Made by a program: the position numbers and the translations under genes | Origin: Deltaproteobacteria bacterium | Lineage (GTDB): Bacteria; Myxococcota_A; Polyangia; Polyangiales; JADJMO01 | Direction: 5' to 3' | Assembly: GCA_022843175.1 (NCBI GenBank) | Contig: JALHOE010000072.1 | Span: 1-38,675 of the forward strand | DNA: 38,675 nucleotides | Notes under the pieces: generated by a model | The model's input: only the letters and a program-made list of their open reading frames with translations | Told to the model about the DNA's origin: nothing | Databases searched by the model: none | Part shown: positions 3,563 through 35,774 of the stretch, one piece after another | Layout: each line of letters begins with the position of its first letter | Numbering within the stretch: position 1 is the first letter of the stretch

Positions 3563-4465
3563 GTGGCCCGATATCGCCTCCGCCTCTTGCTGCAGGAGTT
3601 CGACCTTCCGCCCGGGGAAACCATCCTCGGTCGAAGCCCGGAGTGCCACGTCACGATCGATGATCCCTTGGTATCTCGCGAACATGCGAAGATCATCGTG
3701 CACGGCGAAGAGGTCGTCTTTCGCGACCTCGGCAGCCGCAACGGATCCAAGGTGAACGGGCAACAGGTCCACGGTGAGGTCACCCTTAACGACGGGGACC
3801 GCGTTCGCATCGGCAACCAAGAGGTCGTCTTCTCGCGCGTGGTCGCGGCGCGGAGACCGGGGCGGCCGACGGGCAGCCTCCGCCATTGCCGCAAGTGCCA
3901 GACGCCCTACGTCGCAGAAGCGCCGCAGTGCCCCAACTGCGGCTATTCGCCCGGCGCCGACGAGACGCTCAGCGGCGTCGCGCCCGCCAACAACCTCGAC
4001 CGCGACAAGTGGTCGCTGCAGTTGCAGGTCGAGCTCCTCGACAAGGCGCTCTCTCTCGGCCGCGTCCCCGACGCCGAGCGCGTGCTCGGTCGCATCGCGC
4101 TCGCGGTCGACGAGCGGATGACCACCGGCCTCCCGGTCGAGCGCGCGCAGGTTGACGGCGCCTTCGGCGGTGCGATCCGGCTCGCGTCGGCGCACGGCGA
4201 GATTCAATGGGTGCGGTGGGTCCTCACCACCGCGCAGCGCCTCGGTCACCCGCCGTCTCGTGCGGTCGTCGAGGCGATCGCCGCGCTGCCGTTGATCGTG
4301 ATGGAGCCCGCGACCCGTCAGCTCGGGGACGCGGTCGCCGCGTTCGAGCTCAAGCGCCCCCAGCTCGACGCCGACGCGCGCGCCGCGGTCGATGTGCTCG
4401 TCGACGTGCGCACCCGACTGCGCCTGCAGAGCGAACGGACCTCTCCCAACGCCGAGGGCTCCTGA
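3563..4465 (+). CDS. FHA domain plus zinc-ribbon protein
   Basis: A 300-residue cytoplasmic protein. An FHA domain (about residues 1-95) carries the phosphothreonine-binding residues: GRS at 23-25, SREH at 38-41, GSRNGS at 57-62 and N65-G66. A four-Cys zinc ribbon follows (C109-x2-C112 and C123-x2-C126). The last 160 residues are helical and resemble the C-terminal half of the next protein (DKALSLGRVPDAERVLG against DKALALGNPESAERLLN). FHA domains read Ser/Thr-kinase phosphorylation, so this is likely an adaptor; its kinase is not adjacent. GTG at 3563 was chosen by comparison with the paralogue, whose FHA domain begins at the same point. An in-frame GTG at 3509 is an alternative. The next gene starts 3 nt after the stop. 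Confidence 0.85.
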   Translation: MARYRLRLLLQEFDLPPGETILGRSPECHVTIDDPLVSREHAKIIVHGEEVVFRDLGSRNGSKVNGQQVHGEVTLNDGDRVRIGNQEVVFSRVVAARRPGRPTGSLRHCRKCQTPYVAEAPQCPNCGYSPGADETLSGVAPANNLDRDKWSLQLQVELLDKALSLGRVPDAERVLGRIALAVDERMTTGLPVERAQVDGAFGGAIRLASAHGEIQWVRWVLTTAQRLGHPPSRAVVEAIAALPLIVMEPATRQLGDAVAAFELKRPQLDADARAAVDVLVDVRTRLRLQSERTSPNAEGS

Positions 4466-4468
4466 TCG

Positions 4469-5317
4469 ATGCGCTTTCGGCTTCGCTACCTGAAGCACGA
4501 TCTCGAGCTCTCGACCGGCGTCTTCTCGATCGGGCGGTCGGCGGACTGCCAGCTCTCGCTCGACGACCCGCTCGTCTCGCGTCGGCACGCGCAGCTCACG
4601 GTGCGCGACAACGAGGTGCTCGTCGAGGACGCCGGGAGTCGCAACGGCGTCCTGGTCAACGGCGTGAAGATCGACGGGCAGCGTCAGCTCTCCGACGGCG
4701 ACCGGATCACGATCGGCGCTCAAGAGATGACGATCACCGCCATCGCCGACAGCGAGATTCAGCGGCGCGCCGTGCGGGCCACGCCGTCCGCCGCCGGCCC
4801 GGTCACGCTCGTCACCATGCCGGTCGCGCAGCCGCAGCAGAGCATCGAGCCGGCGATCGGCGAGGAGTCCACCATCGCGCGGCCGAAGCGCGGCGAGGCG
4901 CTCAAGCTCCTCGGCGGCGTGGCCGACAAGGCGTTGGCGCTCGGAAACCCCGAGAGCGCCGAGCGGCTCCTCAACGGCGGCCTGCAGGAGCTGATGGCCG
5001 ACGTGCGCGCGGGCCGTGCGGTCGGGATGGACTCGCTCGAGATCGCGGCGCGGTTCGCCGCGCGCCTCGCGTCGGGCACCGGCAAGGGCAGTTGGGGCGA
5101 CTACACCATCGAGCTCTACGCGCGCGCCCACGCGCTGCCGCCGGCGCCGATCGTCGACGAGCTCTATGTCGCTGCGCGCAAGATGAAGGGGTTCGACCTC
5201 ACCCGCTTCCGCGCCTACCTCGATCAGTGCCGCGGGCGCGCGAGCGAGCTCGGGCCCACCGAGAAGTTCGTGCTGCAGCGCCTCGAGGGCCTCGAGCGAA
5301 TCCTGGCGACGCGTTAG
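4469..5317 (+). CDS. FHA domain protein, tandem paralogue
   Basis: A 282-residue protein with an N-terminal FHA domain (GRSADC, SRRHAQL, DAGSRNGVLVNG, DGDRITIG) and the same helical C-terminal module as its upstream neighbour, but no zinc ribbon. A Pro/Gln-rich linker containing PVAQPQQS takes the ribbon's place. Starting 3 nt after the upstream stop, it is almost certainly translated from the same message. The pair looks like a tandem duplication in which one copy gained or lost the ribbon. Binding of phosphothreonine is family knowledge; the partners are unknown. The ATG at 4469 puts the first FHA strand at residue 2. Confidence 0.85.
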   Translation: MRFRLRYLKHDLELSTGVFSIGRSADCQLSLDDPLVSRRHAQLTVRDNEVLVEDAGSRNGVLVNGVKIDGQRQLSDGDRITIGAQEMTITAIADSEIQRRAVRATPSAAGPVTLVTMPVAQPQQSIEPAIGEESTIARPKRGEALKLLGGVADKALALGNPESAERLLNGGLQELMADVRAGRAVGMDSLEIAARFAARLASGTGKGSWGDYTIELYARAHALPPAPIVDELYVAARKMKGFDLTRFRAYLDQCRGRASELGPTEKFVLQRLEGLERILATR

Positions 5318-18146: not shown

Positions 18147-19433
18147 TTACAGGCAATCGCTCGGCGAGGTGGCCGTGGTCACGGTGGCCGTGGGTGCGGC
18201 CACCGGGGTGGCAGCGAACCCGAGGCCGATCGAGATCGCGTTGCACTCCTTGGTGGTGTCCTGCAGCGAGGGCGCGCCGGCGACGAGATCCGGTGACGAC
18301 GTGGCGGTGGAGATCACCTGATCGTAGGTGGTGTTCCCCGGACAGATGCCCCATTGCTCGAGGGGCGGGGTGAACGCCTTGCCGAGGGCGACGGGATCCG
18401 CCGCGCCCGCGATGGTGCCGGCGCCGCCGCTGCTGACGTCGAAGCTGACGACTGCGCTCTCCATGGGCACGATGACGGCGCTGCCGAGCGAGAAGAGCGG
18501 GATGGGCATGGCCGCGGCGCCGAGCGCGCCACTGACCCAGACCCCGCCGGCCATGTAGCCGCCCGGGAACTTCGCGCGCGGCTCGGCCGCGTCGAGCGAC
18601 GCCGTGTCGATGGGCCACTTGTCGCTGCCGTCGTACTTGGGGAAGCCGCCGAGGTTGCCGGCGAGATACAGCGCGCCGGGGACCTTCGCGTTGTCTGCCG
18701 GCCCCACGTTGTCGAGGCGGAGCAGCAACGTCATCTTGCCCTCGGCGATCCGCTGGTTGACCGACTCTTCGGCGTCGTATTTGAGCGAGTTCACCACGGA
18801 CATGAAGTGCTGGCCGAAGTTGTTGTCTCGGCCGAGAGTTCCGTCCGTGAGGACGTAGAAGCCCGAGCCCGCGCGACGCGTGCAGGTGTTGGTGCCGGCC
18901 TTCGAGTCGTCCTTGCTGGTCGTGCGGGCGTCGAGGTTGAAGCCGTACTGACGCCAGGCCAGCGGGTCGTGCTTGCCCGTGTTTCGGTCGATCGGCCCGA
19001 GATGAAGGCGCTTGATCGCGAACCACTTGGTGGCGCCTCCGGGGACCTCGGTGGTCGGTTTCGCAGGCGGCACCGCGCCGGGGAGCGGGCCGGTGTCGCC
19101 GACGTCGGAATCCGTAGCACCGGTGTCGAGCACACCGGTCTCGAGCGGGCCCGAGTCGAAGGCCCCGGTCTCGAGGGGGCCGGTGTCCGCGGGCTCGGCA
19201 TCGCTCGTACCGGTGTCGCTCGCGCCGGTGTCGCTCGTACCGGTGTCGCTCGTACCGGTGTCGTCGCTTCCGGTCTCGCTCGCACCGGTGTCGGTCGTAC
19301 TGGTGTCGACGGCGCCCACGTCGGCGTCGGCGCCGGCGTCGGGTTCGGCCGTAGCTGGCTCGGAGGTCGAGCCACAGCCGCACATCATCACCAAGAGGAT
19401 AGAGAGACCCGCGAAGCTCGCCGAACGAAGCAT
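18147..19433 (-). CDS. Lipoprotein with DTG-repeat linker
   Basis: A 428-residue lipoprotein. The signal peptide ends VMMCGCGS, with the modified Cys in that cluster. A linker of about 90 residues (about 35-125) is built from 5-residue units of DTG type (DTGTSDTGTSDTGASDTGTS). The following 300-residue domain begins with KWFAIKRLHLGPIDRNTGKH and includes DNNFGQHFMSVVNSL; I do not recognise a family. ATG 19433 gives a compact signal peptide; a start at 19469 is possible. The linker is encoded by a 15-bp tandem array (19201-19305), so its length could vary between strains. Confidence 0.8.
   Translation of the reverse strand: MLRSASFAGLSILLVMMCGCGSTSEPATAEPDAGADADVGAVDTSTTDTGASETGSDDTGTSDTGTSDTGASDTGTSDAEPADTGPLETGAFDSGPLETGVLDTGATDSDVGDTGPLPGAVPPAKPTTEVPGGATKWFAIKRLHLGPIDRNTGKHDPLAWRQYGFNLDARTTSKDDSKAGTNTCTRRAGSGFYVLTDGTLGRDNNFGQHFMSVVNSLKYDAEESVNQRIAEGKMTLLLRLDNVGPADNAKVPGALYLAGNLGGFPKYDGSDKWPIDTASLDAAEPRAKFPGGYMAGGVWVSGALGAAAMPIPLFSLGSAVIVPMESAVVSFDVSSGGAGTIAGAADPVALGKAFTPPLEQWGICPGNTTYDQVISTATSSPDLVAGAPSLQDTTKECNAISIGLGFAATPVAAPTATVTTATSPSDCL
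19201..19305. repeat. 15-bp tandem array, seven units, in the DTG linker
   Basis: Seven consecutive 15-bp units resembling TCGCTCGTACCGGTG run from 19201 to 19305. Units 2-4 are almost identical; 5 and 7 have drifted. The unit length is a multiple of three, so gain or loss would keep the frame. Confidence 0.75.
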
Positions 19434-22396: not shown

Positions 22397-22861
22397 TCAG
22401 CGGCGCGCGATGGCTTCGCGGAGGACGCGCTGCAAGCGATCGAAGTCGCGCGCCAGCTGCCGCGCGACCACGAGCTGGAACTTGCACGCGAGCTCGGCGT
22501 TCGAGTGGAGCAGGTGATCGAACGCGGCGCGGTTGAGCGACGCGGTCTCGACGGGACCCACGGCGGTGCACGTGGCGGTGCGCGCGCCGCGATCGACGAG
22601 CGCGATGAGGCCGAAGAGCTCACCCGGCGCGAGCTCGCGCTGGAGCGCCTTTCGCGGATCACCGCTGCGGGTGACCCGCACGACGCCCGAGAGCAGGACG
22701 AAGACCGCGTCGGACACCGAGCGACGCGCGTCGCCCTCGCGAATGAACACGTGCCCGTCGCCATGCGACTCGATCGTCATGGCGCGCGCGAGCGCGTCGA
22801 TCTCTCCGGCGTCGAGCTCGGCAAAGGCCGACGCGTTGCGCAGCGCAGCGGCGAGGTCCAT
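22397..22861 (-). CDS. Stand-alone cyclic-nucleotide-binding domain protein (second copy)
   Basis: A 154-residue protein that is one cNMP-binding beta-roll with C-terminal helices and no DNA-binding domain. The phosphate-binding cassette reads FGLIALVDRGARTATCTA: the Arg that contacts the cyclic phosphate (as CRP Arg82) is present, but the Glu of the usual GEL/GEI is Leu. Whether it still binds cNMP is unclear. Its ATG shares one base with the stop of the upstream cNMP gene (TGATG), so translation is probably coupled. It is the last gene of the operon. Confidence 0.82.
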   Translation of the reverse strand: MDLAAALRNASAFAELDAGEIDALARAMTIESHGDGHVFIREGDARRSVSDAVFVLLSGVVRVTRSGDPRKALQRELAPGELFGLIALVDRGARTATCTAVGPVETASLNRAAFDHLLHSNAELACKFQLVVARQLARDFDRLQRVLREAIARR

Positions 22862-23355
22862 CACGCGCCTCCGCCGAAGAGCTTGGCGAGCGCGCTCTCG
22901 AACCAGCCGCGTTTGGGCGCGGCAGCGTCGTCGACGGCGATGGTGTTGGCGTGACGCACGCGCTCCGCGAGGTCTTCGACCAACGCGCGAAGCAGCAATG
23001 ACGCCACGACGGTGTCGGTTGCACGGAGCTTGGTGAGCGCTTCGCGCGAGAGCTTGAGGATGCGCGTGGGCTCGAGGGCGGTCGCGGTCGCGTGGGCGGT
23101 CGTTGGGTCGAGCAGCGAGAGCTCGCCGGTGAACCCCCCCGGCGTGATTCGGCCCAGGGCGACGTCGCGCCCGTCGACGTCGATCGAGAGCCCGAGCGCG
23201 CCCGTGTCGACCACGTGCAGCGCGTCGAGCGGCTGGCCATCGCGGAAGAGCACGTGACCGGCATCGACCTCGAGCGCGGCCATCGCCGTGCGCAAGACCT
23301 CGCGCTGCGTCGCGTCCATGTGCGCGGCGAGGCGGTCGAGGACGACGGCTCCCAT
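22861..23355 (-). CDS. Stand-alone cyclic-nucleotide-binding domain protein (first copy)
   Basis: A 164-residue cNMP-binding beta-roll (VLFRDGQPLDALHVVDTGAL, GRITPGGFTGELSLLD). Here the GEL Glu is kept, but the Arg expected 9-10 residues later is missing (PTTAHATATA), the reverse of the neighbouring copy. A long C-terminal helix (LRALVEDLAERVRHANTI) and a tail ending KRGWFESALAKLFGGGA follow; there is no helix-turn-helix. It begins 9 nt after the cyclase stop. It may act as a protein-bound regulator of the cyclase or kinase rather than a transcription factor. Confidence 0.82.
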   Translation of the reverse strand: MGAVVLDRLAAHMDATQREVLRTAMAALEVDAGHVLFRDGQPLDALHVVDTGALGLSIDVDGRDVALGRITPGGFTGELSLLDPTTAHATATALEPTRILKLSREALTKLRATDTVVASLLLRALVEDLAERVRHANTIAVDDAAAPKRGWFESALAKLFGGGA

Positions 23356-23364
23356 AGGGCCTTT

Positions 23365-24315
23365 CTACCGCTGCGCGCCGCCCCGCGTCGAGAGCGCGCT
23401 TCCCGAGAGCGACTCGCCGAGCAGCTCGAGCGACACCACCCCCGACAAGCGGAGCACATCGCCGACCTGCACCGGAGTGTCCTGCCCCTTGGTGACGGGG
23501 CGTCCGTTGAGCTCGACCGGACGCTCGGAGAGGGCGCGCACCACGAGGCCGTCGGGGAGCCGGCGGAGCTCGAGGTGCCAGCGGGAGAGCAGCACCGCCG
23601 CCTCGGGGTCGGGCAGCGCGATCACCAGATCGTTGGCGGGCGTGCCGTTGGGGTTCGCGCGCAGCCGGCCGATCGACACCACGTCCTTCTCGGGGATCAC
23701 GAGCTCGGTCGCGGTCTCGACCACCCGGATCGCGCGGGGGAAGCGCGCGAGATCGCGCCACTCATAGACGAACACCGGGACCTCGCCGAACCCCTTGAGG
23801 GCGATCAGCGGGAGGGCGCGACACCGCGCGCGTGCGCCGCTCTCGAGCTCGTGAAAGCCCGCGCGCGTGAGCCGGATCTCGCCGGGCTGCGCCGACGAGA
23901 CGACGCGCGCGCAGAAGTTCACCGCGTCGCCGCTGACGACCACGCCGTCGGTCAGGACGCGCCCGTGGTGCACCGCGGTGCGCACCGAGAAGCTCCCCTC
24001 CGCGCGCACCGCGTGCTGGAGCTCGGTGAGCGCGGCGATCGCCTCGTCGGTCCGCGGAAAGACGCAGAACGCGCCGTCCCCCGCGGTGTCGACGATCCGG
24101 CCGCCGTGCGCGGCGGTGACCCTTCCGACCAGGTCGACGTGCTTCTGCGAGAGGATCCGGCCCGACTCGTCGCCGTGCTGGGCCGTGTACTCGGAGGAGC
24201 CCACGACGTCGGAGAAGACGACGCACAGCGAGCGCTCGAAGCGGCGCGTCAGCGTCTCGGAGATCCGCGACTGCAGTCGAATCAGCTCGGTGAGGCCGAG
24301 AGCTTCGAAGTCCAT
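23365..24315 (-). CDS. Class III nucleotide cyclase fused to a C-terminal FHA domain
   Basis: A 316-residue cytoplasmic protein. The class III cyclase domain (about 25-195) has VVFSDVVGSSEYTA (first metal Asp), RIVDTAGDGAFCVF (second metal Asp in GDG) and GDAVNFCARV with the transition-state Asn and Arg. The site usually holding the adenine-reading Lys is Asp (VDTAGD), as in other bacterial VDTAGD-type cyclases, so ATP specificity should not be assumed. Residues about 220-310 form an FHA domain (VSIGRLRAN, LLSRWHLELR, ELNGRPV). The FHA offers a way for phosphothreonine to control or localise the cyclase. Its ATG shares a base with the upstream stop (TGATG). Confidence 0.87.
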   Translation of the reverse strand: MDFEALGLTELIRLQSRISETLTRRFERSLCVVFSDVVGSSEYTAQHGDESGRILSQKHVDLVGRVTAAHGGRIVDTAGDGAFCVFPRTDEAIAALTELQHAVRAEGSFSVRTAVHHGRVLTDGVVVSGDAVNFCARVVSSAQPGEIRLTRAGFHELESGARARCRALPLIALKGFGEVPVFVYEWRDLARFPRAIRVVETATELVIPEKDVVSIGRLRANPNGTPANDLVIALPDPEAAVLLSRWHLELRRLPDGLVVRALSERPVELNGRPVTKGQDTPVQVGDVLRLSGVVSLELLGESLSGSALSTRGGAQR

Positions 24316-25322
24316 CAGAACGAGCCGGACAGCGTGAGGAACCCGCCCCCGGGGAGCGCCGCGAATCCGGCGCGTGGGGCCCGCTCTTTTCCGTTGAAGA
24401 GGAGCACGCCGCCGACCACCGCGACGACCGAGCCGCCGATCGCGGAGACGATGCCGGTGGTGCGCAGCCCGCGCCAGGTGGCCACGCCATTCGACGCGTC
24501 CTGGGCGTCCGCGAGCTTGGCGCCGCTGCCCGCGGGGAGCTCGGTGCAATACCCGCTGCCATCCGTCTTGGTGCAGCCGAAGCTCGCCACGCGATCTTCG
24601 TAGGTATTCACCTTCGAGATCGCGACGATGGTCATGGTGACGCCCGCGATCGCGACCACCCCGCCGCCCACGACGAGCGACCAACCGAGCGTGTTGCTGG
24701 GAACCTCCGCCGGCGGAGCCGAGGGCGCGGGCGTCGGCTTCGGCGCGGGCGGGGGCACGATCGGGGGAGCGCTCGGCGCCTCGGGCGTCCCGTCGTAGGT
24801 CGACTCGGCGCCCGCGGCGATCGTCACCGCGCTGGCGCGGGCGCCCTTAGCGGACTCGACGCGCACGTTGATCGTGCCCGCGAAGACGACGAACGGCGTC
24901 GCGCGCGGCAGGGTCCCGCGGGCGCGACCGTCGATCGTCACGGTGGCGCCGTCCGGTCCCTTGACCACGAGCTTCGCCACCTTCGGTTGGCGATCGGCGA
25001 TGAACGCCTCGGCCTTCGCCCTCGCCGGCTCTCCGAGCCCGAGCGCGAGCGCCTCGCCATAGGCCTCGACCGCGAGATCGTCCTGCTTCAACCACGCGGC
25101 CGCGTTGGCGACCTCGTATTTCGATTCTTTCGTCGGACGGAGGGCGTCGGCCTCGCGGAACCGGAGCAACGCCTCCTCCCACGAAGCGGCGTCGTTGGCG
25201 TCGAGCGCCTTCTCCTTCGCGGCCGCCGCACGCGCCATCGCCGCGTCGTAGGCGTCTGCGCTCGCCGGGAGGGATGCGCACACGAGAGAGGCCGCGACGG
25301 CCCACGCGATCAGGCGCTTCAT
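24315..25322 (-). CDS. TPR/PEGA-domain membrane protein
   Basis: A 335-residue protein. The signal peptide (to about 24, ending ASLPASA) is followed by TPR-like helices (AAAAKEKALDANDAASWEEA, LLRFREADALRPTKE). Next comes a PEGA-type beta domain (KLVVKGPDGATVTIDGRARG, ATPFVVFAGTINVRV), then a Pro-rich linker, a transmembrane helix (VVGGGVVAIAGVTMTIVAIS), a short Cys-containing loop and a second helix (IVSAIGGSVVAVVGGVLLF). Such TPR-PEGA proteins often lie beside Ser/Thr kinases in this group. ATG 25322 overlaps the kinase stop as ATGA; an ATG at 25328 is an alternative. Role in sensing or scaffolding is inferred. Confidence 0.78.
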   Translation of the reverse strand: MKRLIAWAVAASLVCASLPASADAYDAAMARAAAAKEKALDANDAASWEEALLRFREADALRPTKESKYEVANAAAWLKQDDLAVEAYGEALALGLGEPARAKAEAFIADRQPKVAKLVVKGPDGATVTIDGRARGTLPRATPFVVFAGTINVRVESAKGARASAVTIAAGAESTYDGTPEAPSAPPIVPPPAPKPTPAPSAPPAEVPSNTLGWSLVVGGGVVAIAGVTMTIVAISKVNTYEDRVASFGCTKTDGSGYCTELPAGSGAKLADAQDASNGVATWRGLRTTGIVSAIGGSVVAVVGGVLLFNGKERAPRAGFAALPGGGFLTLSGSF

Positions 25323-26737
25323 TGGCATTGCTCCGCGAAACAATACCCGCTCGCGCACTCGCCGCCGCGTGCGCATGCGGCGCCGGGGGGGAGCTTGGTC
25401 TTGGCGACCGCCGCGGGCGCGCTGGCGGACGCGGAAACCGTGGGTTTCGGGGGGGGCGGGTGCGCGGGGGCGACGGCCGTCGCAGCGACCGTCTTCGCCA
25501 CCGGCACCGATGCCGACGGCGCGCTCACCGGCTCGGAGGGCTTCGTCGTGGCGATCGGAGCGGCGACCGCGATGGTGCTCGTGCTCGCGACCGGCGGCGG
25601 GGAGGTCGCCGCGCTCGGACCGGCCGGGGGTGACCGCGGCGTGAATCGAATGCCGACGAGGACGCCGCCGAGGAGGAGCAGCGCGCCGCCGAACGCCACC
25701 GCGAAGCGTCGCCGGCTCGACGTGCCCTCGCTCGGTCTGCGGTTGGTGGTGGCGGCGGGAGCGCCGGTGGCCACCGGTGCAACTCCGGTGACCGCGCTCT
25801 CGACCGCGCCCGTCTCCTTCGGCAATTGCACCGGCGTCGGCGCTTCGACGGCCAGCGCAGCGAGCGCCGCCTCGACCTGCGCGGCCGTGTTCGGATAGCG
25901 ATCGCGCGGCTCGCGCGCGCAGCACCGGAGGAACCACGCGTCGAACGCGGCGCCGAGGGGCAAGCCCTTCTCGGAGGGCGCCGCGATCGGGTCGACGAGG
26001 ATCTTCGCCATCAGCTGACCACTCGAGCGCGCGTCGCTGAAATACTCTCGGCCGGCGAGCAGCCGGTACACGATGAGCGCGAGCGCCCATTGGTCGGTCC
26101 GCGCATCGACCGTCGACGCATCGCGGATCTGCTCGGGAGACATGTACATCGGCGTGCCCAACGACGAGGGCGCCGTCTCGAGCGCGCCCGTCGCGAGCAT
26201 GCCCACCGCCGACTCGCCCACGAGCTTGGCGATGCCGAAGTCGCAGACCTTGGTGACCGGCTCCCCCTCTTCGTCGAGCGCGACGAAGAGGTTCTCCGGC
26301 TTGAGATCGCGATGGACGATGCCGCGGTCGTGCGCTTGCTCGAGCGCCTTTCCGACCTGCTTGAGCATCCAGGCGACCTCGGCGGCCGGCAGCGGCCCCC
26401 GACGCGCGGCGATCGCCTCGACGTTGCTCCCGGTGAGGAGCTCCATCACCAGGTACGGCATCGGGGTGCCGTCGAGCATGTGATCGCGCTGCGCGTCGAC
26501 GACCTTGACGACGTGCTTGGAGCGGAGGGCGGCGGCGGCGCGCGCTTCGCGAACGAAACGCTCGACCATCATTCGATCGGCCGCCACGCTCGGGTGCAAC
26601 ACCTTGAGCGCGAAGTGCTCGTGGGAGTGGATGTGCTGCACGCGGAACACCGCGCCCATGCCGCCGCGTCCGAGCCGCTCGAGCACGCGGTAGCGGCCGT
26701 CGATCACCTTGCCGGTGAGGTCGATCTCGTCAGCCAT
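25319..26737 (-). CDS. Transmembrane Ser/Thr protein kinase
   Basis: A 472-residue Hanks-type kinase. The catalytic domain (about 15-285) has the Gly loop GRGGMGAVF, ALKVLH (Lys), HRDLKPENLF (catalytic Asp), DFGIAKL and SPEQ. A transmembrane helix at about 345-365 (VAFGGALLLLGGVLVG) is followed by a Pro/Ala/Ser-rich exterior linker and a short Cys-rich end (CARGGECASGYCFAEQC). The kinase should face the cytoplasm with a small external cap. It is the first gene of a five-gene operon whose third product is an FHA-cyclase. A 67-nt gap separates it from the divergent Crp/Fnr gene. ATG 26737 is right at the domain's usual lead-in. Confidence 0.9.
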   Translation of the reverse strand: MADEIDLTGKVIDGRYRVLERLGRGGMGAVFRVQHIHSHEHFALKVLHPSVAADRMMVERFVREARAAAALRSKHVVKVVDAQRDHMLDGTPMPYLVMELLTGSNVEAIAARRGPLPAAEVAWMLKQVGKALEQAHDRGIVHRDLKPENLFVALDEEGEPVTKVCDFGIAKLVGESAVGMLATGALETAPSSLGTPMYMSPEQIRDASTVDARTDQWALALIVYRLLAGREYFSDARSSGQLMAKILVDPIAAPSEKGLPLGAAFDAWFLRCCAREPRDRYPNTAAQVEAALAALAVEAPTPVQLPKETGAVESAVTGVAPVATGAPAATTNRRPSEGTSSRRRFAVAFGGALLLLGGVLVGIRFTPRSPPAGPSAATSPPPVASTSTIAVAAPIATTKPSEPVSAPSASVPVAKTVAATAVAPAHPPPPKPTVSASASAPAAVAKTKLPPGAACARGGECASGYCFAEQCQ

Positions 26738-26804
26738 CTTCCCCTGCGCGACATCCTACCCGCGTTTCTCACCTCCGCCCAACTCGCGTGATACGAACGC
26801 TCGC

Positions 26805-27533
26805 GTGACGGACTCGTCCACCTGGCTGCGCTCGGTGCCCCTGTTCGCTTCGCTCGACGCCGCGGACCGCGCGAAGATCGCGAGGATCGCGACCCGGCGC
26901 CTGGTCAAGCGAGGCGAGACCGTGGTCCGGCAGGGAGAAGACGGGGACGCGGCGTACGTCGTGGTCCACGGCCGGCTGAAGGCCACCGTGGCCACCTCGG
27001 GCAAAGAGGCGGTGCTCTCCGTGATGGGCCCGGGGGACGTCTTCGGCGAGCTCGCGATGCTCGCTGGCGGGGTGCGGACGGCGACGGTCGTCGCGCTCGA
27101 GCCGACGCAGGTGCTCGCGATCGACGCCGCGCGATTCCACCCACTGCTGCAGACGGCGCCGGAGCTCGCCTACAAGCTCCTGCGGCACGTCGCGAAGAGC
27201 CTGGTGCGGCTGACGGCGCACGTCGGGGCGACGAGCTCGCGCGACGTGCGCAAACGGCTCATCGGCAAGCTCATCGACCTCGCCGCGACGCACGGCGTCG
27301 CCGACGCGCGCGGGGTTCGGATCTCGATTGAATTGTCACAGAGCGATCTCGCCGAGATGGTCGCTGCGACCCGCGAGAGCGTGAACAAACACCTTCGCGC
27401 GCTCGCCCGCGCAAACCTCGCCGAACACCGGCGCGGCGTGATCGTCATTCGCGATCGGGCGCGCCTCGTCGCGGCGATGGACGTCAGCGCGGACGACAGC
27501 CCTCGACCACGTACGAAACGTCGAGCGAAATGA
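26805..27533 (+). CDS. Crp/Fnr-family transcription regulator
   Basis: A 242-residue regulator. The cNMP-binding roll (about 15-125) has an intact cassette: FGELAMLAGGVRTATVVA holds both Glu and Arg, unlike the two stand-alone cNMP proteins in the operon. The C-terminal winged helix includes SQSDLAEMVAATRESVNKHL, the recognition region. There are no N-terminal cysteines for an Fnr cluster. It probably answers to the cyclic nucleotide made by the nearby cyclase. GTG 26805 was chosen because the family N-terminus (LRSVPLFASL) follows at once. Its last 50 nt overlap the convergent lipoprotein gene. Confidence 0.9.
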   Translation: MTDSSTWLRSVPLFASLDAADRAKIARIATRRLVKRGETVVRQGEDGDAAYVVVHGRLKATVATSGKEAVLSVMGPGDVFGELAMLAGGVRTATVVALEPTQVLAIDAARFHPLLQTAPELAYKLLRHVAKSLVRLTAHVGATSSRDVRKRLIGKLIDLAATHGVADARGVRISIELSQSDLAEMVAATRESVNKHLRALARANLAEHRRGVIVIRDRARLVAAMDVSADDSPRPRTKRRAK

Positions 27534-34601: not shown

Positions 34602-35774
34602 CTACCGCGCCGAATACGCCCGCGCGACGGCGTCGCGCGCGTGCACGAGATCCTGGCTCTCCTGCCCGTGGCCGGCGACCGCGAACGAGCTCGCATAGCG
34701 ACCCGCTTGCTGCGCGAGCTCCTGCTGCGCGCGCCAGCCCTGGTCCATCGGCATGCCGAGGGTGGTGCGGAACGCGTCGCCGAACTCGACGGCGTTCTGG
34801 AAGCGGTCGTCGGCGGACTTGGCCATCGCCTTGGCGACGAGCAGCTCGAGCTCGTAGGGCGCTTGCGGGAGGAACTTGCGCAGCTGCGGCGGGGGCGTCT
34901 GCACGTGATCGCAGGCGACCAGCCAGTCGCTCCGGTCCTCGGTGGGGAAGGGCAGGCGGCCGGTCAGCATCTCGAACAGGAGCACGCCGGCCGAATAGAG
35001 ATCGCTCCGGCCGTCGAGCGGCTTGCCCTGGATCTGCTCCGGGCTCATGTACGCGACCGTGCCGGCGATCATGTTGCCCGTCGCCTGCGAGAGGTTGGTC
35101 GGGACGCGCGCGATGCCGTAGTCGGTGAGCTTGGCCACGCCGTCGGTGCGGAGCAGCAGGTTGTCGGGCTTCACGTCGCGGTGGACGATGCCGAGCGCGT
35201 GGGTGGCCGCGAGGCCGCCGAGCAGCTGCTGGAAGTAGTGCCACGAGCGATCGAACGGCAGGCAGGGGAGGATGCGCACGCCGGGCGCCTGCGAGCGCTT
35301 GGCGGTCGCCTCGCGCACCTTGCGCTCGATGAGCGAGCCGAGCGTCTCGCCGCGCACGTACTCCATGGCGATCGCGAGGATCGACTGCGCGATCTCGGCC
35401 ATGCCGAAGAAGCGCACGACGTTGGGGTGCGCGAGCGTCGCGAGGATGCGCGCCTCGTTGGAGAACAGCTCGCGCATGCGGCCCTGATGCGAGAAGGTGG
35501 GGTGGAGCACCTTGATCGCGGCCTCGAGCGGCGGCTGCACGCCGCCGGCGCCGCGCGGGTGCAGCCACGCGTGCCACACCACGCCCATGCCGCCCTCGCC
35601 GAGCTGCGCGTCGAGCGAGGCGATGGCCCAGCCGAAGTCGAGCTGCGCGCCGACGCCGATCGTCGTCGCGCTCGGTGCGGCCGGCAGCGGCGCGGCGCAC
35701 CAGGGGCACGCGCGATACCCCTGCGCGGCGAGCCGGGCGCACGAGGGACAGCGAAGCAACCCCTCCGGAACCAC
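34602..35774 (-). CDS. Soluble Ser/Thr protein kinase with N-terminal zinc ribbon
   Basis: A 390-residue kinase. Residues 9-26 (C9-x2-C12 and C23-x2-C26) form a zinc ribbon. The kinase domain follows with GEGGMGVVW, AAIKVLHPTF, HRDVKPDNLLL, KLTDYGIARV (DYG instead of DFG) and YMSPEQIQGKPLDGRSDLYS. There is no transmembrane helix; the last 60 residues are polar helices (QGWRAQQELAQQAGRYASSF). GTG 35774 is the first codon that keeps the ribbon whole. It diverges across 51 nt from the zinc-ribbon FHA gene, whose product is a likely target or reader of its phosphorylation. Confidence 0.88.
   Translation of the reverse strand: MVPEGLLRCPSCARLAAQGYRACPWCAAPLPAAPSATTIGVGAQLDFGWAIASLDAQLGEGGMGVVWHAWLHPRGAGGVQPPLEAAIKVLHPTFSHQGRMRELFSNEARILATLAHPNVVRFFGMAEIAQSILAIAMEYVRGETLGSLIERKVREATAKRSQAPGVRILPCLPFDRSWHYFQQLLGGLAATHALGIVHRDVKPDNLLLRTDGVAKLTDYGIARVPTNLSQATGNMIAGTVAYMSPEQIQGKPLDGRSDLYSAGVLLFEMLTGRLPFPTEDRSDWLVACDHVQTPPPQLRKFLPQAPYELELLVAKAMAKSADDRFQNAVEFGDAFRTTLGMPMDQGWRAQQELAQQAGRYASSFAVAGHGQESQDLVHARDAVARAYSAR

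Follow-up and report, generated by a model that had tools for sequence, protein, structure and literature searches.

A class III nucleotide cyclase-FHA family and its possible control by a Ser/Thr kinase at a Polyangiales locus

Can a membrane Ser/Thr kinase control a nucleotide cyclase through an FHA (forkhead-associated) domain that the cyclase itself carries, and which proteins would then read the product? The question is raised by positions 22397 to 27533 of contig JALHOE010000072.1 (38,675 nt, all of which was analysed and is called the window below), from the assembly GCA_022843175.1 of a Deltaproteobacteria bacterium of the order Polyangiales. At this locus the gene of a class III nucleotide cyclase fused to an FHA domain lies in one run with the genes of a Ser/Thr kinase, of a second membrane protein and of two cyclic-nucleotide-binding (CNB) proteins. 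Links from bacterial Ser/Thr kinases to cyclic-nucleotide signalling are poorly known, despite the many kinases encoded in each of the genomes studied here. We found that the novelty of the locus sits in the cyclase-FHA family and not in the order of the five genes. Control of the cyclase by the kinase is supported, though unproven, since a threonine in the tail of the cyclase-FHA proteins is conserved and Ser/Thr kinases adjoin the family above chance.

The run consists of five minus-strand genes: the transmembrane Ser/Thr kinase (472 aa, 25319..26737; Pfam Pkinase, 7e-43), a TPR/PEGA-like membrane protein (335 aa, 24315..25322; with a profile match and no Pfam match), the cyclase-FHA protein (316 aa, 23365..24315; Pfam Guanylate_cyc, 7e-8), and CNB1 (164 aa, 22861..23355) and CNB2 (154 aa, 22397..22861), each with a single CNB domain (Pfam cNMP_binding, 3e-19 and 1e-14 for the two proteins). 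The stop of the kinase gene overlaps the ATG of the PEGA-like gene by 4 nt, the PEGA-like and cyclase-FHA genes overlap by 1 nt, a gap of 9 nt precedes CNB1, and CNB1 and CNB2 overlap by 1 nt. The gene of a Crp/Fnr-type regulator (242 aa, GTG start, 26805..27533, plus strand; Pfam cNMP_binding, 5e-24, and HTH_Crp_2, 2e-14) diverges from this operon at a distance of 67 nt from the kinase. Such a layout had been described in the initial annotation of the window, and it held when the exact coordinates were re-read from the sequence. All six genes were also called by a codon-usage gene caller; a scan of the GC-rich locus for promoters and terminators gave no usable signal.

The cyclase-FHA protein and its family

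The catalytic domain has the fold of class III nucleotide cyclases. In fold searches the AlphaFold2 model of the protein (predicted local distance difference test score, pLDDT, 85.7) matched Ma1120 with Z 25.2 and a root-mean-square deviation of 1.7 over 159 residues, and Rv1900c with Z 24.6 and a deviation of 1.8 over 161 residues. The protein belongs to a sparse family, for which we collected 25 sequences from Myxococcota, Burkholderiales and Planctomycetota. Homologs of full length, 36-50% identical to the cyclase, were present in 13 of the 183 other sampled genomes of the order; further ones came from other genomes of the phylum and from Piscinibacter, Rubrivivax, other Burkholderiales and Planctomycetota, and none was found in one genome of the same genus or in three of the same family. 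The homolog of Piscinibacter sakaiensis (L034) is nearer to the family consensus than the window protein. In the protein tree the window member is on a long branch and falls into no supported group, so that vertical descent and transfer are not separated by it.

Both metal-binding aspartates, Asp36 (codon 24208..24210, minus strand) and Asp80 (24076..24078, minus strand), as well as the transition-state arginine, Arg137 (23905..23907, minus strand), are invariant in the 25 members; the partner of this arginine, Asn133, is present in the window protein and nearly invariant across the family. As the metal aspartates and the arginine are kept by highly diverged members, we would argue that catalysis has been retained. 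The residues that select the base are less usual. The place of the base-selecting Lys is taken by Asp76 (24088..24090, minus strand), and by Asp in 25/25 members; in 20 other cyclases from the same genome and two relatives this site holds Lys in 19 cases and Glu in one. The second specificity site is Val126 in the window protein and V, Q, I, A, S, G, L or K across the family. The Lys/Asp pair of adenylyl cyclases is thus replaced by Asp76 and Val126, and the position that carries Glu in guanylyl cyclases is acidic, being Asp rather than Glu, with a variable second site other than Asp. It is known that the guanylyl-cyclase pattern consists of an acidic residue in place of the Lys and a variable second residue, the characterised enzymes carrying Glu (PMC4215837). 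Because the family shows this combination, cGMP is somewhat more likely to be the product than cAMP. The invariance of the Asp turns the nature of the product into a clean biochemical question.

The same site could be given another meaning: with Asp76 in place and the second specificity residue lost, the protein might be a pseudo-enzyme, or an enzyme acting on some other substrate, that makes neither cAMP nor cGMP and works as a phosphorylation-sensing scaffold. The fixed Asp and the variable second site would suit this explanation, as would the CNB domains that directly adjoin members of the family (in the window and at two other loci, L028 and L039), all of which have Ala for the phosphate-binding Arg. 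On the other hand, a protein freed from catalysis would hardly be expected to keep the metal aspartates and the transition-state Arg over such divergence, and the Xanthomonas cyclase XC_0250 is active despite replacement of the corresponding N and R (PMC3770947), so that odd active sites need not be inactive ones. We consider this explanation improbable.

The cyclase domain is followed by the FHA domain at residues 189-300 (23416..23751, minus strand), with GR at 216-217, SRWH at 244-247 and NG at 270-271. Pfam calls no FHA domain in the window member, though it calls one in 20 of the 25 family members. Since the fold search with the whole model covered the cyclase and not the FHA part, the latter was modelled and searched separately: predicted alone, the C-terminal 120 aa take an FHA fold, and FHA domains are the top structural matches, with complexes of the FHA domain of Bdellovibrio DgcB among the matches. 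The fold, the GR, SxxH and NG motifs and the Pfam calls in the relatives all agree with the fusion of FHA to cyclase that the initial annotation had proposed.

The FHA residues that read phosphothreonine (GR and SR) are invariant in the family. In every member a short tail comes after the FHA domain. The model of the window protein shows this tail as disordered (pLDDT below 50), and it holds the candidate phospho-acceptor, Thr310 (23386..23388, minus strand). A tail Thr at offset 9-13 was observed in 21/25 members (15/17 after removal of redundancy), a count exceeding those of all 20,000 within-tail shuffles (P <5e-5), and in 21/25 members a Thr of the tail has I, L, V or M after it. Given this conservation and the intact phosphothreonine-reading residues, the family may be a class III counterpart of the switch known from DgcB and GarA; by analogy, the tail threonine and the FHA domain look as expected for a switch operated by the protein's own phosphopeptide. 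As the proteins carry their own FHA reader and keep the tail Thr, the link between kinase and cyclase can be tested directly.

An FHA domain could also serve for docking, binding to an autophosphorylated Thr of the kinase or to another phosphoprotein, so that a constitutively active cyclase would be recruited to the membrane and would produce a local signal. The FHA domain of GarA/OdhI does dock on autophosphorylated PknG (PMC8546545), and Thr310 itself fits the family tail motif poorly. Yet the position of the tail Thr is conserved across phyla within an otherwise variable disordered tail, even in members with no adjacent kinase, which is hard to reconcile with docking as the whole role of the domain and makes us regard this possibility as unlikely.

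Two further FHA-like sequences are present on the same contig, far from the operon, at the starts of adjacent plus-strand genes (3563-4465, GRSPECHVTIDDPLVSRE, and 4469-5317, GRSADCQLSLDDPLVSRRH).

Kinase, partner protein and gene neighbourhoods

The kinase has HRDLKPEN and DFG motifs in its kinase domain, a single transmembrane segment and a Cys motif in the C-terminal tail (ECASGYCFAEQCQ). The product of the next gene has a signal sequence, a TPR-like and then a PEGA-like region, and hydrophobic C-terminal segments. Its TPR/PEGA label gained no support from Pfam, which detected neither TPR nor PEGA in the protein and its homologs, but a profile of 12 sequences gave a hit to a genuine TPR-PEGA protein (hhalign, 96%, E 1e-9). 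Many genomes contain the kinase-PEGA pair, the PEGA-like gene being a conserved partner of the kinase, and a paralogous pair in the same genome (L044) likewise overlaps by 4 nt. Another Ser/Thr-kinase-like gene of the window (34602-35774, minus strand) has a Cys-rich zinc-ribbon-like N-terminus and resembles kinase domains at several examined loci.

To see what accompanies the cyclase-FHA gene elsewhere, we determined adjacency rates from the sampled loci, leaving the window out. A Ser/Thr kinase directly adjoins the family in 5 of 44 slots, compared with 1 of 161 genes at a distance of at least 3 (Fisher P 0.002); the five loci concerned (L019, L029, L030, L031, L032) belong to four genomes, and the events are therefore not fully independent. 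Genes with CNB domains occur within four genes of the cyclase at 4/24 loci (L019, L020, L028, L039), with about 0.5 expected from the genome-wide rate; for CNB genes directly adjoining the cyclase no significant enrichment over the local flanks was found (2/44 versus 3/161, P 0.29).

The locus L019 is a scrambled echo of the window: about 9 kb there hold a Crp-like gene, the cyclase, a PEGA-domain kinase and TPR-PEGA genes, arranged differently from those of the window. At L028 and L039 the gene adjoining the cyclase encodes a CNB protein of one common family (methyltransferase-like by Pfam in L039). At L028 (3231-8589) the cyclase-FHA gene is in a run with the CNB protein gene and a gene for an MPAB/Lcp-type oxygenase, another CNB protein being encoded divergently; at L039 (4590-7878), a planctomycete locus, the cyclase-FHA gene is transcribed divergently from genes for a CNB-patatin (NTE-like) and a CNB-methyltransferase protein.

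The initial annotation had treated the five genes as a compact signalling cassette and had made this depend on conservation of their order in related genomes. The order was seen at 0 of the 24 other loci and in no other sampled genome of the order or phylum. The five-gene cassette as a conserved system was rejected on the strength of these order- and phylum-wide searches together with the neighbourhoods of the 24 loci; as it is the order that went unseen in these samples, the cassette falls and the link between cyclase and kinase does not fall with it. Control of the FHA-cyclase by the kinase, the other part of that proposal, keeps its support from kinase adjacency, the tail Thr and the intact FHA residues. 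The kinase-PEGA pair, the CNB1-CNB2 pair and the cyclase-FHA gene are found apart in other places; with the full order seen only in the window, the five genes seem to have been put together locally, as a one-off, from three older modules. The ArsA-bearing loci of three genomes (G001, G002, G004), considered as a syntenic anchor, have ArsA as the sole gene in common with the window, and thus offer no basis for a comparison of synteny with the nearest relatives.

One could go further and suppose that the three modules are neighbours by chance and have no common function. Each of them does occur alone elsewhere, the complete set was seen only in the window, and the genomes are rich in kinases, with at least about 80 Ser/Thr kinases per genome (about 81 scored, and more candidates). 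However, every junction except that of 9 nt is a stop/start overlap, which implies that the genes are transcribed together and that their translation is coupled, and both kinase and CNB genes are over-represented near the cyclase family at other loci. In addition, about 24 CNB domains are encoded in the whole genome of 9.75 Mb and three of these are inside 5 kb at the locus, a clustering beyond chance. A purely accidental juxtaposition is very improbable.

Elsewhere in the window a predicted lipoprotein-like gene (18147-19388, minus strand) has N-terminal DTG/TGAS-type repeats; the opposite strand reads as a long open reading frame with TGVARTGV repeats.

Candidate receptors and the proposed circuit

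A cyclic nucleotide is held in a CNB domain by the Glu and Arg of the phosphate-binding cassette (PMC10127613; PMC12422582). In Clr, residues of the cassette contact phosphate and sugar (PMC10127613), and a CNB domain that had no cassette residues was judged incapable of binding (PMC12422582). Both residues are present in the Crp/Fnr regulator (GELAMLAGGVRTA), as they are in 17 of the 24 CNB domains of the genome (counted by eye from the alignment). CNB1 keeps Glu78 and has Ala87 at the Arg position; CNB2 keeps Arg94 and has Leu85 at the Glu position. In relatives from two genomes (G003 and G001) the first CNB domain has Glu and Arg and the second Gln and Arg; CNB1 thus lacks an Arg that its nearest relatives retain. 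CNB1- and CNB2-like domains form one fused protein of 338 aa in a genome of the same genus (L056, 2923-3939), while in a genome of the same family the two genes overlap by 1 nt and stand alone (L055, 7613-8652).

These observations bear on the circuit as it was originally drawn, in which phosphorylation by the kinase switches the FHA-cyclase and the cyclic nucleotide is read by CNB1, CNB2 and Crp/Fnr, all of them parts of one dedicated cassette. The packing of the genes and the domains match that description, and kinase and CNB neighbours do recur above chance around the cyclase family. Nevertheless, with each of the CNB proteins lacking one cassette residue, and with no cyclase beside the related CNB pair of G001 and G003, three receptors for a single product are unlikely, and to the full circuit we give little credence. 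One receptor, Crp/Fnr, accompanied by a degenerate CNB pair seems the better reading.

We therefore favour a modified circuit, to which, as a whole, we assign a probability of about 0.42. The membrane Ser/Thr kinase, by means of its outer part together with the TPR/PEGA-like partner, would sense an envelope cue and would phosphorylate Thr310 in the tail of the cyclase-FHA protein; the phosphothreonine would be bound by the FHA domain of the same or of the partner subunit, and this engagement could alter dimerisation of the cyclase domains and thereby start or stop synthesis. The product, cGMP somewhat more probably than cAMP, would be read mainly by the divergently encoded Crp/Fnr regulator. 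CNB1 and CNB2, with impaired pockets, may represent a split tandem-CNB protein, more likely a scaffold or regulatory pair than two further receptors. Phosphorylation, the direction of the switch, the product and the signals to which the CNB proteins and Crp/Fnr respond are what we infer from the features described above.

Several observations weigh against this modified circuit. The tail of the window protein, ALSTRGG, has no hydrophobic residue of the usual kind after Thr310 and is a weak example of the family motif. The protein is also among the most diverged members of the family, with the longest end branch and with 14 of 85 conserved columns broken. For an invariant Asp at the base site combined with Val at the second site no characterised counterpart was found, and the cyclase activity therefore remains putative. 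Finally, 19 of the 24 members outside the window have no directly adjacent kinase; in L022-L026 the neighbour is a PAS histidine kinase-receiver and in L016, L017 and L020 a GAF protein, so that the input may be something other than the kinase.

In L022-L026, all from one genus, 39-47 nt separate the cyclase-FHA gene from the end of an upstream gene for a PAS histidine kinase-receiver hybrid (two called open reading frames in L022), which suggests that the enzyme receives another kind of input there. The cyclase-FHA family seems to accept several types of input.

A more general scheme can be imagined, in which the class III cyclases of this family, in all three phyla, are kinase-gated mononucleotide cyclases that work by the logic of DgcB and GarA: each would be switched by phosphorylation of its own tail Thr, read by its own FHA domain, and an unusual product, due to the invariant Asp, would be read by CNB domains that have lost the usual phosphate-binding Arg. 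As a complete scheme it is a long shot.

Comparison with known systems

Searches of open-access papers turned up no account of a system that joins a class III cyclase to FHA; several known systems share parts of its design. In Bdellovibrio DgcB the FHA domain binds the phosphorylated tail of its own protein and thereby activates the diguanylate cyclase; DgcB homologs from myxobacteria and a Sorangium fusion of kinase, tail, FHA and GGDEF have been reported as well (PMC6733907). DgcB resembles the cyclase-FHA protein in joining a nucleotide cyclase, an FHA domain and a Thr in its own disordered tail, and the FHA folds match. It differs in having a GGDEF domain that makes cyclic di-GMP, with the tail and the FHA domain at the N-terminus, whereas in the window protein the class III cyclase comes first and is followed by FHA and tail. 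GarA and OdhI, whose tails are phosphorylated by kinases (PMC8546545), are FHA proteins in which a tail Thr acts as a self-switch, as the candidate switch would here; unlike the window protein, they have no enzyme domain, their tail is N-terminal and their targets are metabolic enzymes.

The pair XC_0250/XC_0249 of Xanthomonas is similar in that the gene of a class III cyclase, producing cGMP, is beside the gene of an effector that binds cyclic nucleotide monophosphates; XC_0250, however, carries TPR and not FHA, XC_0249 is a CNB-GGDEF fusion, and the pair as described includes no Ser/Thr kinase (PMC3770947). Rv1900c (LipJ) and Ma1120, the closest solved structures, resemble the window protein in the short loop that connects the two specificity sites, but at the base position they have Asn and Lys, respectively, in place of its Asp, and their solved parts have no FHA domain. 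Coupling of a Ser/Thr kinase to a cyclase is known from the myxobacterial protein Pkn2 of Myxococcus and from the TOMM kinase/cyclase fusions (PMC1262709; NCBIfam TIGR03903); against the latter model the window kinase scores 119.6 bits, the cut-off being 705.75. Pkn2 and the TOMM proteins are single fused proteins, whereas in the window kinase and cyclase are encoded by separate genes and the cyclase has an FHA domain.

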